A model generated the notes under the pieces. It did not search any database. It was not told the origin of the DNA and saw only the letters and a program-made list of their open reading frames with translations. Below are positions 5,310-31,276 of a stretch of 33,703 nt of DNA, in pieces. Numbering within the stretch: position 1 is the stretch's first letter; every line of letters starts with the position of its first letter. The position numbers were made by a program, and so were the translations under genes. The stretch comes from a virus, in IMG/VR virus record IMGVR_UViG_3300005515_000030, positions 1 through 33,703 of that record; one strand, given 5' to 3'.

Positions 5310-5627
5310 ATGGCACTCACCACGCTCAAGCCCAGGCTTGCAGCACTCACCGCCTCAAGGGCTCCGATGCTCGACCACAAGGCCGGCACCACGGAGATGG
5401 AGAGAGGCAGGGCATGGATGGCCAAGCGCCAACGTGTAGCCCTAGCCCATGGCTACCAGTGCGCTGCATGTGGCAGGGCCTGGAATAGCAGGCACGACCA
5501 GATCGACCACCGCATCCCAAGGGAGCAGGGTGGCAGCAACGACGAGTCGAACCTTCAGCCGCTGTGCCATGAGTGCCATGCGGCAAAGACGGCCGCAGAG
5601 GCGAAGGCAAGGGCAGGCAGGGGCTAA
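5310..5627 (+). CDS. HNH endonuclease of the packaging region
   Basis: The 105-residue protein has a complete HNH/zinc motif: C51-x2-C54, the DH pair D66-H67, N81, C86-x2-C89-H90 and a following AAK. GAAAGG at 5297-5302 gives a good ribosome site for ATG 5310. HNH proteins of this size next to the terminase (HK97 gp74 type) are known to assist terminase cleavage at cos. It is the first gene of the late operon and lies about 200 bases before terS, with the candidate cos region between them. Confidence 0.88.
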   Translation: MALTTLKPRLAALTASRAPMLDHKAGTTEMERGRAWMAKRQRVALAHGYQCAACGRAWNSRHDQIDHRIPREQGGSNDESNLQPLCHECHAAKTAAEAKARAGRG

Positions 5628-14178: not shown

Positions 14179-14553
14179 ATGGCAACCATCACGCTCGGCA
14201 AGCCGCCGAAGAATTTCAAGAAGCTGGTCACGTTCAAGATGCTGGACGGGACCGACGGCACGATCGAGTGCTTGTTCAAGTACCGGACGGTGACGGCCTA
14301 CGGCGCGATGAAGGACCAGATGTCCAGCGACCTGGGTCTGAGCGATCCGACGACCGCCACCTGGGCGTTGATCATGGAGAAGCGCCGCGACAAGGGCGGC
14401 GAGTTCCTTGCCCTTGCCCTCGACGGCTGGAACCTCGACGTGGGGTTCACCAAAGAGACGCTGGAGCAGTTTGCCGACGAATACCCCGGTGGTGTCGCGG
14501 CAATCGCGGACGCCTACGACGCTGCAATCGGCCAGGGCCGCCTGGGAAACTGA
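14179..14553 (+). CDS. Tail assembly chaperone (gpG-like, zero-frame product)
   Basis: The 124-residue product begins MATITLGKPPKNFKKLVTF, with DGTDGTIECLFKYRTVTAYGAM and a helical C-terminus (KETLEQFADEYPGGVAAIADAYDAAI). Size, place between tube and tape measure, and the overlapping second frame mark it as the G-type chaperone that holds the tape measure during tail assembly. GAAAG (14167-14171) lies before ATG 14179. The stop TGA (14551-14553) directly follows the slippery heptamer. Confidence 0.85.
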   Translation: MATITLGKPPKNFKKLVTFKMLDGTDGTIECLFKYRTVTAYGAMKDQMSSDLGLSDPTTATWALIMEKRRDKGGEFLALALDGWNLDVGFTKETLEQFADEYPGGVAAIADAYDAAIGQGRLGN

Positions 14554-14906
14554 TCTCGGCCGTCGTGGCGTGGTACGCGCCGGCCGCAGTCGAGCAGCCC
14601 ACTTCGGATGATCCGAAGCATCAGCCGAATGCCTTCGGCGCCGCCATCACCAATCACTACGCGTCCCAGAACGCTGAACTTTGGCCCGAAAACTGGGCCA
14701 TCTGGAGCCTTTTCCGTGGCATCGCCAATCAGTGGCGGCGGGCCGGGATGGGGGGCGCCGCTTACGCACTCGACTACGGGGTGCTGTTCCACCGCATGGA
14801 CCGCATGCGACTCAATGACCGCGAGTACGAAGAGACCTTCGAGCTCATCAAGGCCATGGAGCGCGCGGCTCTCGAACAAATGAATCAGGGAGTCGACGAA
14901 AGCTAG
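14179..14906 (+). CDS. gpGT-like fusion chaperone made by -1 frameshift
   Basis: If ribosomes slip back one base at GGGAAAC (14544-14550), they read GGG AAA and continue with CTG ATC TCG to the TAG at 14904-14906. This gives a fusion of about 242 residues: the 124 of gpG plus 118 from the second frame (LISAVVAWYAPAAVEQ..., GAAITNHYASQNAELWPENWAIWSLFRGI...). The T part has no credible start of its own. Such G/GT pairs are conserved in long-tailed phages, where the ratio of the products matters. Its stop overlaps by four bases with the stop of the minus-strand gene at 14903. Confidence 0.8.
14544..14586 (+). promoter_or_regulatory. Programmed -1 frameshift signal
   Basis: The slippery heptamer GGGAAAC is in the phase G-GGA-AAC of the gpG frame, next to its stop. 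After a six-base spacer, CGGCCG (14557-14562) can pair with CGGCCG (14581-14586), with a possible inner GCG/CGC pairing. Lambda uses GGGAAAG at the same place. The heptamer, spacer and stem are all seen directly; the efficiency is unknown. Confidence 0.82.
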
Positions 14907-15055
14907 CCTCGCGCCCTGTTGATGGCCGCCCTGAGCCAGGCCATGCCGAGGCGATCTAGCTTTGCCCATTGAGCCGCAGTCAGGCGGATGGACCGAACGA
15001 GGAGTTTTTCCTCGGGTGGAGTCGGGGGGCGACCGGGCGGGCGTTTGGCTTCCAT
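14903..15055 (-). CDS. Small ribbon-helix-helix DNA-binding protein
   Basis: A 50-residue gene on the minus strand. The start is the ATG at 15055 and the stop is the TAG at 14905-14903. The product has a basic Pro-rich arm (MEAKRPPGRPPTPPEEK) followed by a short strand VRSIRL (20-25) and two helices, TAAQWAKLDRLG and MAWLRAAINRARG. This is the Arc/CopG-like RHH layout, in which the strand reads DNA as a dimer. It is the only minus-strand gene inside the late operon and overlaps the gpGT stop tail to tail by the four bases CTAG. It faces a divergent gene across a repeat-rich gap, so it is probably an autoregulatory repressor. Late transcription would run antisense through it. Confidence 0.72.
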   Translation of the reverse strand: MEAKRPPGRPPTPPEEKLLVRSIRLTAAQWAKLDRLGMAWLRAAINRARG

Positions 15056-15073
15056 GCCCCCGATTGTATTGCG

Positions 15074-15109
15074 GGTTGTTGTGTTGCAAAAACAACTGGT
15101 TGTTGTGTT
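15074..15109 (+). promoter_or_regulatory. Repeat-rich operator/promoter region between divergent genes
   Basis: GGTTGTTGTGTT occurs exactly at 15074-15085 and 15098-15109, 24 bp apart. An inverted repeat AACAAC-tg-GTTGTT (15091-15104) overlaps the second copy. The stretch is AT-rich against its surroundings. Toward the minus-strand RHH gene there is a -10-like TACAAT (complement of 15063-15068). Toward the plus strand there are TTGCAA (15084-15089) and TACCAT (15109-15114), though their 19-bp spacing is long. Binding by the RHH protein is inference. Confidence 0.6.
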
Positions 15110-15144
15110 ACCATAAACGCTCCAAACTTGAAGGAGCGGCGGGC

Positions 15145-15588
15145 ATGAGTGACCTGAGTGAAATTTACGCGGCCCTGTGCGAAGCGAAACGTGCGGTTGA
15201 TGCGCTGGAAACGTGGCAACTCAATGCCGACGGCGCCGATGCCGTCCGCAGTCGCCGTCGCTCCATAGAACAAGGCCTTGCGGCCTACGAACGCCTGTCG
15301 CGCGACCTGCGAGACGGCCGCAAGCATGTTGAGCCGCCCGAAGATTTCAAGATGACCGAGTGCGGTTGTAGCTGGCCTAACGCCAGCCCGCCTTGCAGCT
15401 ATTGCACGGACCCGGCGAACAACGAAGAGAACGAGCCGGCCAAGTGCAACGAGTGCGATGGGCACGGCTGGTTCTGGGCGACCGATGCCGTGCGCCACCT
15501 TTCACCCTCGGGCGAGTATCTGGGCACCGAGCAGTGGCAGCACAAGCGGGAATGCGAGGCGTGCAAGGGCCAAGGGGAGGCGGTCTGA
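15145..15588 (+). CDS. Cysteine-rich protein with DnaJ-like CxxCxGxG motifs
   Basis: The 147-residue product starts at ATG 15145, eight bases after AAGGAG (15131-15136). Residues 1-60 are a helical region (LSEIYAALCEAKRAVDALETW..., RRRSIEQGLAAYERLSRDL). The rest holds four cysteine pairs: C73-x-C75, C84-x2-C87, CNECDGHG (101-108) and CEACKGQG (137-144). The last two are DnaJ-type zinc repeats, so one or two zinc sites are likely. Function is unknown. It heads a two-gene unit, with its stop overlapping the nuclease start (TGATG), and faces the RHH gene across the operator-like repeats. It has its own promoter region inside the tail operon, as morons do. Confidence 0.7.
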   Translation: MSDLSEIYAALCEAKRAVDALETWQLNADGADAVRSRRRSIEQGLAAYERLSRDLRDGRKHVEPPEDFKMTECGCSWPNASPPCSYCTDPANNEENEPAKCNECDGHGWFWATDAVRHLSPSGEYLGTEQWQHKRECEACKGQGEAV

Positions 15589-16085
15589 TGGCGCTCACGC
15601 TCAATCGGCTCAAGACGCTGCTGCACTACGACCCGTTGAGCGGGGCGTTCACTTGGCGTGTCAGAACGTCGAACCGGATTGCCGTTGGTGATGTGGCTGG
15701 CACGAAGAACGCCGCCGGGTACGTGAGCATCAGCATTGACGGGAAGCTGCATCGTGCGAACAGGCTCGCTTGGCTGTATGTGACTGGTGAGTGGCCGGTC
15801 GGCGATGTTGACCACAAGAACGGCGTCCGCCATGAAAACTGGTTTGCCAACCTGCGCGATACGAGCCGATCTGTGAATCTGCAGAACCAGCGGCGGGCCA
15901 GAACCAACAACCAATCGAGCGGCTTGCTCGGCGTGTCAGCGTCGCTCGGCCGCGCGAAGAGATGGCGGGCGAGCATCAAGGCGGAGGGCAAAGCGAAACA
16001 TCTAGGTCGCTTTGCCACGAAAGAGGAGGCGCAGGAAGCGTATCTGGCAGCGAAGCGTGATCTTCACCAAGGCTGCACGATCTAG
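15588..16085 (+). CDS. HNH endonuclease with AP2-type DNA-binding domain (homing-like)
   Basis: The start ATG 15588 overlaps the upstream stop. The 165-residue protein has an HNH_3-type nuclease half: LHYDPLSGAFTWR (12-24), GYVSISIDGKLHRANRLAWLY (44-64), VDHKNGVRHENWFANLR (74-90) with D75-H76 and N78/N84, and NLQNQ. The AP2-like half is GLLGVSASLGRAKRWRASI...HLGRFATKEEAQEAYLAAKRDLH (112-160). HNH-AP2 proteins are usually free-standing homing endonucleases that spread in phage genomes. Its position between gpGT and the tape measure, where no gene is expected, suggests insertion. Two terminators follow. Confidence 0.9.
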   Translation: MALTLNRLKTLLHYDPLSGAFTWRVRTSNRIAVGDVAGTKNAAGYVSISIDGKLHRANRLAWLYVTGEWPVGDVDHKNGVRHENWFANLRDTSRSVNLQNQRRARTNNQSSGLLGVSASLGRAKRWRASIKAEGKAKHLGRFATKEEAQEAYLAAKRDLHQGCTI

Positions 16086-16093
16086 TCAACCAA

Positions 16094-16115
16094 AGCCGGC
16101 ACCGAGCCGGCTTTT
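16094..16115 (+). terminator. Terminator after the accessory cassette
   Basis: AGCCGGC (16094-16100) pairs with GCCGGCT (16106-16112) around ACCGA and runs into TTTT. Confidence 0.8.
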
Positions 16116-16124
16116 CTCATTCTG

Positions 16125-16149
16125 GGGCTCGCTTTGGCGGGCCCTTTTT
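16125..16149 (+). terminator. Second terminator before the tape measure, with a competing hairpin
   Basis: GGGCTCGC (16125-16132) pairs with GCGGGCCC (16137-16144), one pair being U-G, followed by five T (16145-16149). The GGGCCC at 16139-16144 could instead pair with GGGCCC at 16154-16159, five bases before the tape-measure ATG. Confidence 0.7.
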
Positions 16150-16163
16150 CTTTGGGCCCCTAG

Positions 16164-19100
16164 ATGACCACTGACAGTCGCAAGATTCAGCTAGAGACCG
16201 CAGTCGACGCAACGGGCGCGAAGGCGGGCTTCCAGCAGGTCAAGGATTCCGCCAAGGACATGGCGCAATCCGTTGCTCAGTCCGGCCAAGCGGCCTCAAA
16301 GGGCATCGACGGAATTGGTGACGGCGCGAGCGCTGCCGGCGCGAAGGTTGATCGGGCAACCTCGAACCTGATCAGCTCCATCCAGCGCGCGACGGCGGCG
16401 GCTGAGGCCGGCAAGAAGTCTGGCTCTGCGTTCTACGAATCCCTGGCCAACCAGCGCGGCGTGAACGTTGACGTGCTGCGCCCGTACCTCAATCAACTGG
16501 ATGCCGTTACCGCCAAGACCAAGGCGGCGACGGCGGCGGCTGTAGATTGGTCCAAGGTCACGACTTCGCTTGGCGCGAGCAACACGCTGGCCGGCGCGAC
16601 TACTTCGCTCGGGGCTACCGCCTTCACGAAGCCGGCGGCACTGCCTGCTGTGGTGCCTCAGATTGCGTCCGAGTCGCAGAAGGCCGCCGTTGTCGCTGCG
16701 CAGTCGCTGGACAAGATTGGCATGTCGGCTAAGCAAACCGCTGCGGCTCTGCGCCAAGTGCCGGCGCAGTTCACCGACATCGTCACCAGCCTTCAAGCGG
16801 GCCAGTCGCCGCTGACGGTGCTGCTGCAGCAAGGCGGTCAGTTGAAAGACGTCTTCGGTGGCGTCGGCCCTGCCGCCCGCGCACTCGGCAACTACATCTC
16901 TAGCCTGATCACGCCGCTGACGCTCGCCGCGGCCGGCGTTGGCGCGCTTGCTGTCGCCATGTACCAGGGCAGCAAGGAGTCGGAGGCGTATGCCAAAGCC
17001 CTGATCCTGACCGGTAACAGCATCGGCAAGACGACCGACCAGCTGCAGGGCATGGCGGCGAACATCGCGAAGATCACCGGCACGCAAGGCGAGGCGGCCG
17101 AGGCCCTGGCCGCCATGGCGCAGAGCGGGAAGATCGCAAGCTCGTCCTTCACGGAGGTCGGGGCGGCGGTCGTTTCAATGAACCGGGTGCTTGGCACGTC
17201 GATTGACGACGCTGTCGGGCAGTTCGTGAAATTGGCGGATGCTCCGGCCAAGGCGTCGGCCGACCTGAACGAGAAACTGCATTACCTCAACCTGACGACC
17301 TACGAGCGCATCCGTGCGCTGGAGGAGCAGGGCGACAAGGAGGGAGCAGCCGCGCTGGCTCAAAAGAGCCTGGCCGAGGCGACCACCGCGCGCATGGCTG
17401 CGGTCGAGAAGCAGGCCGGCGTTCTGGCCCGCGCGTGGCAGGCGCTTACGCACGACGCCAAGGAAGCTTGGGACATCATGTCCGGGCTGGGGCGCCCGCA
17501 GACCACGGGCGATAGGATCGCGGACCTTCAGAAGCAGTTGGCCGATCGCCAGGCCCGCGGTGCCACCAACAGCCTGACGACCGGAGCATTCGAGAAGGGC
17601 AATTCGCGCCTGCAGGCGGAGATCGCTACGCTGTCGCGTCAATCGTTGCGCGAGCAGGAATACGCGTATGCGCAAGGCGAGAAAGCGCGGTCGGACGCCG
17701 CCAAGATCGCGGCCTCGGACCGCCTGAACACCCTGACGAAGGAAGTCCAGACCAACGCGGACAAGCGCAAAAAGGCGATCGCCGAGCTGAACAAGGACTT
17801 TCAGACCCTGGGCAAGGCGACCAGCGGCGCCGAATACGACAAGCTCGTCGCCAACATCAACGAGAAGTTCAAGGATCCGAAGGCGGCCGCCGGTAAGGCC
17901 TTCCAGGACGACGCGGCGACGAAGATGCTCGCCGGTCTCCGCCAGCAAGAGGCGGCGCTCAAGGAGCAGCTTGCAACCGACGAAAAGCTCACCGCCTCCG
18001 AGAAGGAACGCGCCAAGTTCGTCCAGCTGGTCGCCGACCTCAAGACCAAAGGCACTCTCACCGCCGAACAGAAGAGCCTCTTGGCCAACCAGGGCGCGAT
18101 CAAAGCCCAGCTCGACCAGAACGTCGCCATCGAGAAGCAGGTCGAGCTCAAGAAGGAGGCGGCCAAGCTCGACGAGCAGCGCCGCAAGGACGCGGAGGAG
18201 TTCGCGCGCCAGATCGAGGGCATCAACATCTCGATCGAGTCCTCGAATCGGAGCCGACAGGACCAGCAGGACCGCACACTTGAAGCCTTCGGGCTGGGCT
18301 CGCGTGCCCGCAGTGAGGTGGAGGCGCAGCGCTCGATCCGTCGCGAGTTCGAGGGCTACCAGCGGCAGCTGACGAAGAACGCCGCCGAGAAGAACCAACT
18401 CGGCTCGGATGCCTACAAAGAAGAGACCGCCCGCATCAAGTCGGCGCTCGACGACGCGCTGGCGGCGCAGCAGGCCTACTTCGACGCTCTGAAGGAAAAG
18501 CAGGAAGACTGGCGCAACGGCGCGACGACCGCGCTGGCCGACTACATCGACTACGTCGAGGACGCCGCCGGCCGGGCCCGCGCGCTGATGTCGAACATCC
18601 TCGGCGGCCTGAATGAGTCGATCACTGACGCGTTGTGGACGGGAAATCTCGACTCATTCAAGAAGTTCGGCGACGCGATCGGCAAGCAGATCATCTCCGG
18701 CATTGTCGAGCAGCAACTGACCAAGCCGCTCGCCCAGTGGATGCAAGGCGCCGTCAGCGACAAGGACTCGATCTTCTCGAAGATCTTCGGCGGCCTGACC
18801 AGCAACAAGGAAAGCGGCGAGAACTGGCTCGGTGCGCTCGGCCTGGGCGGCGGCAAGTCGGCCGCGAACGACGCCCTGGCGCGAGGCTCCACGATCGCGA
18901 ACCCGCTCTATGTGAAGTCGGTTGACTTCGAAGGCGTTGGATCGGTCTTCGGCTCCGCCGCCAACGACAGCGGCGGGGGATTCGCCGGAGTTCTGGGAGG
19001 GCTTTTTGGCGGCATGTCGAATGGCGCAGCGACGACCGTCGCGAACGCGCTCCCCGGCGATTCACTGGACAACCTTATCAAGCTGGCGGGCGCCTGGGGC

Positions 19101-19340
19101 GGCGCGTTCGCTGACGGGGGAAGCCCGCCGCTTGGCAAGGTATCGCTGGTTGGGGAGCGAGGGCCCGAGTTGTTCATCCCAAATCAGCCGGGGACCATCG
19201 TCCCGAACGGCGCGATCGGCGGCAGGAGCACTGTCGTGCACATCAACCAGACCTTCGCCGAAGGCACCTCCAGAAAGACTGCCGACCAGGCGGCTCTTTC
19301 GGCGAGTAGGGCGCTTCAGCGTGCGCAGAGGATCGCATGA
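16164..19340 (+). CDS. Tail tape measure protein
   Basis: The 1058-residue length and position after gpG/gpGT identify the tape measure. Residues about 195-290 match the TMP_2 type: [37 protein letters not shown], then a hydrophobic segment [21 protein letters not shown]. The middle is long coiled coil with repeated KEK/EQ heptads. The C-terminal part has [38 protein letters not shown] and [21 protein letters not shown], the ending common in lambda-like tapes. No good ribosome site precedes ATG 16164; a hairpin reaches to within five bases of it. It overlaps the next gene by ATGA. Confidence 0.95.
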
Positions 19341-29906: not shown

Positions 29907-29909
29907 CTA
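29878..29909. repeat. Long inverted repeat at the integrase stop codon
   Basis: TAGCGCAAT (29878-29886) pairs with ATTGCGCTA (29901-29909); inside, CTTC/GAAG extend the stem to 14 bp with one T-G wobble and a CAAT loop. Its outer arm includes the integrase stop codon. No T run follows in either direction. It may end the integrase message, block read-through from the late operon, or bind integrase. Confidence 0.65.
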
Positions 29910-31076
29910 GGACGTGCTCCGTTGCGCCTTTTCTTCCCTGGATTCTTCCCCGATCAGGTTCTCCAGCTTGCCCATCTCGACCGCGTTCTGGCCGCCGTCG
30001 ATCCACTTGGCGTAGGTCCGCAGGAACATGTCGACCGAGTGCCCCATCTGCTTCGCCGCGTAGGCCGGGGTGACGCCGGCCATCAGCATCATCGTCGCGT
30101 AGGTGTGGCGCGTCTGGTAGGGGCTGCGGTAGCGGATGCCCAGGCGCTTAAGGGTGGGGCGCCAGTACATCTCCCGCGGCGTCCAGTCGTCCACCCAGCG
30201 CTCGCGCGTCTTGGGGTCAGGGAAAACCCAGCCGTCCCGCATCAGGAAGCTGTGCGCCTTCTGGGCCTTGAGGTACTCCAGCGCCCGCGAGTTGATCTGC
30301 ACCAGGCGCGCGACGTTGGTCTTGGTGTTGTCCTTGTGCTCGCCCAGGACGATGGCGTCGGACACCATCATGTGCCCGAGCCGCCAGTCGATGGACTCCC
30401 ACTTGAGGGCGAGGCTTTCCGATGTGCGCAGGCCAGTGAAGAACTTGACGCCGAAGTAGTTGGCGATCTCCGGGCCGTACTTCTCCAGCAGGCCGGCCAG
30501 GATGGCTTCGGCCTCCTCCATGCTGAACGGGTCGGGGATCTTGCGCTGGTGCGGCGCGGACTCCAGGCCGTCGAGCGGGTTGATGGTGATGATGCGGTCC
30601 TTGATGGCCAACGTCAGCGCCAGGCGCAGGACGCTGGTCTTGTTGTTGATGGTCTTGCCGCTCCATGTCGGCTCCTTCGCCAGCGCGGCGAGGATGTCGC
30701 TGTGCAGCAGCGCCTTCAGCTGCTTGTGGCCGATGCGCTTCTTCCACCAGTCCTTCGCGATCCGGTAGCCCTTCAGGGTGCTGGACTCCTTGGTCTGCAG
30801 GCTGTACCAGAGGTCTAGGTGCTCGCCGACCGTCGTCCCGACGCCGGTGGTGGCGTGCGGGCTGGCCGGGAAGTAGTCGGCGTAGATGAAGGTGCCGTGC
30901 CGGATCTTGTCCTTGATCTCGGCCGCCAGCTTGTGGGCGTAGACGAGGTTCTTCGGGGTGGGCGGCATGGGCTTGCCGTCCGTCTTGATCGTCTCCTTCC
31001 GGACTTCACCCTCGAAGGTGAATGAGAGGCGGATGGACTTGTCGCGCGCCTCTACCCCGCTTCCTGCTCGGCCCAT
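29907..31076 (-). CDS. int: Tyrosine integrase with DUF3596 arm-binding domain
   Basis: ATG at 31076 begins MGRAGSGVEARDKSIRLSFTF, the usual DUF3596 start; the upstream TTG/other reading is not conserved. The 389-residue protein has the arm-type domain (1-70, ending GTFIYADYFP), a core-binding helical domain (80-165) and the catalytic domain. Catalytic residues: Arg217 (FFTGLRTSE), Arg323-His324 region (YQTRHTYATMM), His346 (MGHS) and Tyr355 (RTYAKW). The usual first His of HxxR is Tyr320, as in other integrases of this kind. It should recombine attP with a host tRNA site and lies next to the att-like region. It overlaps xis by 25 bases. Confidence 0.95.
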   Translation of the reverse strand: MGRAGSGVEARDKSIRLSFTFEGEVRKETIKTDGKPMPPTPKNLVYAHKLAAEIKDKIRHGTFIYADYFPASPHATTGVGTTVGEHLDLWYSLQTKESSTLKGYRIAKDWWKKRIGHKQLKALLHSDILAALAKEPTWSGKTINNKTSVLRLALTLAIKDRIITINPLDGLESAPHQRKIPDPFSMEEAEAILAGLLEKYGPEIANYFGVKFFTGLRTSESLALKWESIDWRLGHMMVSDAIVLGEHKDNTKTNVARLVQINSRALEYLKAQKAHSFLMRDGWVFPDPKTRERWVDDWTPREMYWRPTLKRLGIRYRSPYQTRHTYATMMLMAGVTPAYAAKQMGHSVDMFLRTYAKWIDGGQNAVEMGKLENLIGEESREEKAQRSTS

Positions 31077-31276
31077 TGTTCGTACCCCTTCATGTCGATC
31101 AGGACGCGACCGTCGCGCTTGACCCATTGCCGGCCTTCCAGCCAGACGCTTTTCGCGATCTTCGTGCGAATCGCCCCGGGCGTAAAGCCGGTCATCATGG
31201 CCGCCAGTTCGATCGTAACGTAGCGCGCACTAACAACCTGCACGGTTGGCGCTGCCGGTTCGAGGATGGCGCTCAT
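31052..31276 (-). CDS. xis: Excisionase-like protein
   Basis: The 74-residue protein has the excisionase core: YVTIELAAMMTGFTPGAIRTKIAKSVWLEGRQWVKRDGRVLIDMKGYEQW (19-68), a winged-helix DNA-binding fold with the wing at KRDGRV. Excisionases bend DNA and direct integrase to excision. It overlaps int by 25 bases and the next upstream gene by four (ATGA), so it is made with integrase. Confidence 0.88.
   Translation of the reverse strand: MSAILEPAAPTVQVVSARYVTIELAAMMTGFTPGAIRTKIAKSVWLEGRQWVKRDGRVLIDMKGYEQWAEQEAG

Follow-up and report, generated by a model that had tools for sequence, protein, structure and literature searches.

A cassette of about 1.2 kb is inserted between the genes for a DUF1799 tail assembly chaperone and the tape measure protein in the phage genome covered by the window (the whole stretch of 33,703 nucleotides that was analysed, from the record IMGVR_UViG_3300005515_000030). 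We consider it quite probable that this is a moron-like cassette in which a dedicated repressor, probably of ribbon-helix-helix (RHH) type, shuts off a divergent cargo promoter, and that this control unit is reusable. The recurring unit of repressor and operator is the interesting part of the locus. A longer record, IMGVR_UViG_3300025284_000002 (43,380 bp, with overlapping ends), represents the same phage and is identical across the cassette and the flanks that were compared. Because a tyrosine integrase gene is present at 29907-31127 of the window, this phage is probably a temperate siphophage.

The cassette is preceded by the genes for a Phage_TAC_4 tail chaperone (14179-14553) and the DUF1799 chaperone (gpT-like; 14565-14906, plus strand), and is followed by that for the tape measure protein (16164-19340, plus strand). 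The statement in the original prediction that usually nothing lies between the tail chaperone and tape measure genes is true for this phage group. A narrower DUF1799 alignment (A4) served for scanning, the first one (A3) being too diverse. In 72 relatives, the gap between both genes has a median of 7 bp and does not exceed 150 bp in 69 of them, while it reaches 1257 bp in the window; three of the 72 hold one small extra gene in this gap. The empty site has been resolved almost to the base in three close relatives (L005, L124, and L126), where a short hairpin, a T-tract with ATTCTGG at its end, and a few bases separate the chaperone stop from the tape measure start. In the window, the left end of the cassette is the chaperone stop (CTAG) and the right end is the T-tract of a hairpin, where GGCTTTTCTCATTCTGG (16109-16125, plus strand) can be aligned to GGCCTTTCTCAATTCTGG in the empty sites, an alignment that only 0-2 of 500 shuffles score equally well. 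According to these ends, the terminator of the cassette seems to have taken the place of the former hairpin, and the second terminator, before the tape measure gene, is extra. The comparison of this interval with relatives, put forward earlier as a check, has therefore revealed a clean absence, and the proposed moron nature of the unit is supported by its insertion at a point where the two flanking genes adjoin each other in relatives. The G+C content of the cassette is 61.5%, versus 65.1% for the window.

The gene order that had been read from the DNA (the 50-aa gene in reverse orientation, those for the CXXCXGXG protein and the HNH-AP2 nuclease, and a pair of terminators) was confirmed by open reading frames, domain matches, and folding. 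The first cargo gene (15145-15588, plus strand) encodes a 147-aa cysteine-rich Zn protein with two CXXCXGXG motifs, which matches the DnaJ CXXCXGXG domain below the curated cut-off and shows a weak match to the Q-like antiterminator phrog_127 (E 0.0055), for which the Zn motif alone is responsible. The suggestion of a defence/anti-defence pair found no backing, as no relative of this protein appeared in phages and plasmids (tblastn) or in PADLOC. Among viral contigs, the identical phage was the sole match, and 398 Burkholderiaceae genomes yielded a single weak match (38% identity) with a frame broken by a stop. The second cargo gene (15588-16085, plus strand), whose start overlaps the stop of the former (TGATG), encodes a 165-aa putative HNH-AP2 endonuclease that belongs to a homing nuclease family according to its matches to HNH_3 (E 3e-8), phrog_99 (E 2.5e-56), and PADLOC HEase, together with a weak AP2 match. 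The cassette brings its own intrinsic terminator (16092-16114, plus strand; -15.6 kcal/mol, z -4.7), and the second one is located at 16124-16145 (plus strand; -19.4 kcal/mol, z -2.3). In a moron, a promoter and a terminator of its own are also expected; here the terminator is supported by folding, and the promoter elements are predicted and conserved.

The 50-aa gene (14903-15055, minus strand) is convergent with the DUF1799 chaperone gene, and the TAG stop of the latter is inside a CTAG that also contains the stop of the former. This gene is real, and its family is under strong coding constraint: the frame differs from that of the homologue in L029 at 12, 4, and 33 first, second, and third codon positions, respectively, and 16 columns are invariant among 20 members. 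Besides viral contigs and Burkholderia plasmids, members occur in genomes of Ralstonia, Paraburkholderia, and Polaromonas, and the family is present in five of 398 genomes from the family of the Ralstonia hit. No match was obtained by tblastn with three members against 50,697 phage records. The warning that such a tiny gene is easily missed is borne out by the plasmid hits H101-H105, under which no features are annotated in a feature table that is itself incomplete. The earlier description of this gene as a 50-residue RHH gene stands with respect to the conserved frame; the RHH label found no convincing model match in Pfam, PHROG, NCBIfam, or the PDB, nor a useful match in a fold search with the AlphaFold2 monomer model. 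Nevertheless, the protein follows the pattern of a basic strand (RSIRL), helix, turn, and helix, and the AlphaFold2 monomer has, beyond the extended RSIRL, only two helices (27-36 and 38-49). Both features suit a monomer of the RHH fold (beta-alpha-alpha, with a dimeric ribbon) without proving it, and the assignment is taken as probable.

The evidence for self-regulation comes from the 89-bp gap between the divergent genes. A de novo search for a two-site motif in the 120 bp that immediately precede the 50-aa gene in 21 loci returned the consensus TTTTTTGTGATACAATAA, present twice per locus, with 17.8 bits per site versus 7.4-8.1 in dinucleotide shuffles. Each predicted operator site is 18 bp long and semi-palindromic, and the two copies are direct, with a spacing of 34-36 bp in 16 of the 21 loci. 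In the window, where the spacing is 24 bp, a model from whose training both the window and its nearest relative (L029) were left out locates copy 1, GTTGTTGTGTTGCAAAAA, at 15075-15092 (plus strand; 20.7 bits) and copy 2, GTTGTTGTGTTACCATAA, at 15099-15116 (plus strand; 17.2 bits), the latter over the presumed -10 element of the cargo promoter; in 2,000 shuffles, the second-site score was at most 4.2 bits. Six loci outside the training set (L079, L094, L098, L101, L103, and L107) also hold a site pair, 35-38 bp apart, and the pair is absent from five more distant homologues (L097, L099, L105, L106, and L110). The conserved tandem sites thus seem to be tied to the 50-aa gene, and the signs of the self-regulation that had been suggested for this unit are present in them.

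Regarding the promoters, the predicted -10 element of the repressor gene (TACAAT, 15063-15068, minus strand) is 7 nt from the ATG. This distance is 6-7 nt in most loci, which suggests that the mRNA of the 50-aa gene may be leaderless. A CTTGC -35 element of the cargo promoter is recognized by eye between both copies of the operator in most loci; the best -35/-10 pair for the cargo in the window has an over-long spacer of 19 bp. It has also been observed that spacings across loci are near 24, 35, 46, and 57 bp, in steps of 11 bp or about one helical turn, and that the upstream region of L048 contains three operator-like sites, with a weak third one in between. Helical phasing of the operators is suggestive only, as the deviating classes are few and the weak third site of L048 intervenes.

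The 50-aa repressor gene is divergent from exchangeable cargo in about 27 loci, comprising the window and some 26 other phages, prophages, and plasmids. It faces HNH nucleases (L029, L031, and L035), TnpB proteins (L054 and L059), an integrase (L107), a CAP-domain protein (L057), or small Zn-type proteins (L030, L032, and L034), a cytosine methylase is the second cargo gene in L079, and in other loci it faces runs of small genes without an assigned product. A nuclease is the first or second cargo gene in seven of the roughly 27 loci. The repressors of L034 and L054 are 89% identical and have unrelated cargo (a Zn protein versus TnpB), and the same is observed for those of L033 and L046, which are 93% identical. 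The search for the pair of repressor and Zn protein that had been recommended retrieved one locus with the gene order of the window (L103: repressor, CXXC protein, and HNH-AP2) besides the three with Zn-type cargo, most cargo being different. The HNH-AP2 protein of L103 is 51% identical over the alignment to that of the window, both stops lie again in one CTAG, and two terminator-like hairpins again follow the cassette, which is located between the tail terminator and tail tube protein genes. In the L103 phage, the junction between chaperone and tape measure genes is without insert, and in the window phage, the junction between tail terminator and tail tube genes is without an inserted gene. 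The cassettes of L029 and L035 are also found among structural genes. Conversely, none of 80 relatives of the HNH-AP2 protein has the 50-aa repressor gene or the operator pair nearby. Since cargo is exchanged and these relatives lack the repressor, the repressor with its operator is the constant part, and the nuclease is a rider.

According to the best-supported reading, which draws on this conserved architecture and on known systems (Aca, Reg, Arc/CvkR, and I-TevI), the 50-aa protein would occupy the pair of direct, semi-palindromic sites between the divergent genes (89-bp gap), thereby silencing the cargo promoter and probably also the one from which it is itself expressed. In a newly entered cell, where the repressor is missing, a burst of the Zn protein and the HNH-AP2 nuclease would be expected; as the repressor accumulates, and likewise in a lysogen, the cargo would become silent except for late read-through. 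In other phages, this repressor with its operator pair stands opposite different cargo. Against this reading count the 19-bp spacer in the window, the failure of family, PDB, and fold searches to confirm RHH, and the fact that transcription running late out of the tail genes upstream, with no terminator in between, would express the cargo as well.

Lambdoid morons are independent transcription units, with their own promoter and terminator, located between genes that are adjacent in relatives. The window cassette resembles them as an independent unit (with a predicted promoter) between two such genes, and differs in having a dedicated repressor gene and a tandem operator. Aca proteins are helix-turn-helix regulators whose genes usually follow an acr gene in an operon (PMC9410906). 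Like the 50-aa protein as proposed here, they are small phage repressors whose repeat operators lie in the core promoter of accessory genes that can be exchanged (PMC9410906), and a burst followed by shut-off is predicted; in contrast, the regulator here is probably RHH, its gene is divergent, and the cargo consists of a nuclease and a Zn protein. When tested as an Aca, the 50-aa protein gave no convincing helix-turn-helix match, and the cassette does not link such a protein to a verified acr gene. Arc_1 and Arc_2 of CAST are RHH-type proteins of 53-72 aa encoded in reverse orientation upstream of the gene for a mobile RNA-guided effector, and the mRNA of CvkR, which is analogous to the Arc regulators, is leaderless (PMC9938897). 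The candidate studied here is also small, probably RHH-type, and in reverse orientation, and its family also faces TnpB (L054 and L059). However, the Arc regulators belong to cyanobacterial transposons with mostly cas12k as partner (PMC9938897), whereas the 50-aa family has many partners and occurs in Burkholderiales, on phages, prophages, and plasmids. As proposed, the control works like that of Aca/acr and CAST Arc, and as tested, it belongs to neither. Reg of the pLS20-family plasmids is an RHH repressor, with operators flanking promoters, of establishment genes transiently expressed on entry (PMC8708921). A similar transient expression under an RHH-type repressor is proposed here, although Reg acts on conjugative plasmids of another host group, and the same work sets RHH on plasmids against helix-turn-helix on phages (PMC8708921). 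Finally, T4 limits the expression of its homing endonuclease I-TevI through repression of the endonuclease promoter (PMC2988022), as is proposed for the homing-type endonuclease in the cassette, with the difference that in T4 the endonuclease itself is the repressor.

The possibility that the cassette is a homing element, in which HNH-AP2 cuts cassette-free phages at the chaperone/tape measure junction, repair copies the cassette, and the repressor limits cutting, is a tentative one, and it is compatible with the repression reading, so that both can hold together. It is consistent with the HNH motif and the family matches to homing endonucleases, with the precise insertion and the empty sites of relatives, and with the fact that each of the four cassettes assignable to a structural operon (those of the window, L103, L029, and L035) has HNH cargo. 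Nevertheless, the original view of a unit driven by HNH homing has turned out to be too narrow, as the nuclease is just one cargo among many and the majority of cassettes are without one, the 80 HNH-AP2 relatives stand apart from the repressor and its operators, the two three-gene cassettes (window and L103) are at unrelated target genes, and the HNH-AP2 target expected at the junction has left no signature beyond the shared CTAG. Among repression, RHH fold, and homing, the last is the weakest, and mobility by this route is possible. The original interpretation was right on insertion and probably on self-regulation, and two findings extend it here: the operator in tandem and the same repressor recurring with exchanged cargo.

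Two further readings have been considered. RHH-type antitoxins are common, small, and autoregulatory, and the 50-aa gene could encode the antitoxin of a pair whose toxin is the Zn protein or the nuclease. This is very improbable, given that the genes are divergent instead of co-directional, that 50 aa in total leave no C-terminal toxin-binding tail, and that nearly identical repressors have unrelated partners; it was rejected because partners are exchanged between loci and no fixed co-transcribed toxin partner is seen. It is also unlikely that the protein is an ancestral early-gene regulator of these phages, located here by chance and not part of a mobile cassette. In L043, L046, L048, and L050, the repressor does face runs of small genes resembling early operons. 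However, the cassette is cleanly absent from relatives of the window phage, and no further site of at least 6 bits occurs in the rest of the 43-kb phage, whose only two operator copies are inside the cassette, which refutes this reading for the window phage.

Under the repression reading, a regulator that is probably RHH would perform on phages a role whose known representatives of like logic (Aca) are helix-turn-helix, and its association with HNH and TnpB nucleases suggests an ability of mobile nucleases to bring their own off-switch. A tiny, usually unannotated repressor together with an 18-bp tandem operator provides a search handle for phage accessory genes. More speculatively, and with a probability below even, the family and its operator could constitute a plug-in switch in general use among Burkholderiales phages and undescribed so far, an RHH counterpart of Aca. 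Its cargo would then be a pool of functions in anti-defence, competition between phages, and mobile nucleases; if true, this cargo could be mined with the repressor and operator as bait.

Several observations concern individual loci. In Paraburkholderia dilworthii (L054/L058) and Polaromonas glacialis (L059), the repressor and tandem operator are divergent from a TnpB with OrfB_IS605 and TNB domains, in which the position that we take to be the usual RuvC-II glutamate reads VGNV or VGDV, perhaps reflecting a rearranged catalytic site. In L107, L108, and L109, a tyrosine integrase gene lies opposite a repressor homologue, in divergent orientation, and a similar pair of sites is spaced by 38 bp. 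The chaperone/tape measure gap is an occasional insertion site, as other small genes, some with signal peptide-like starts, occupy it in L189, L194, L201, and Acidovorax phage Aval (gp33; L002:4514-4969). Aval gp32 (L002:4154-4465), annotated as an FAD-dependent oxidoreductase, is actually a homologue of the DUF1799 chaperone, with 50% identity to the window protein. Elsewhere in the window, a second, unrelated HNH-like gene (5310-5627) adjoins the terminase genes, and a small ORF judged by eye to be excisionase-like (31052-31276, minus strand) adjoins the integrase gene.
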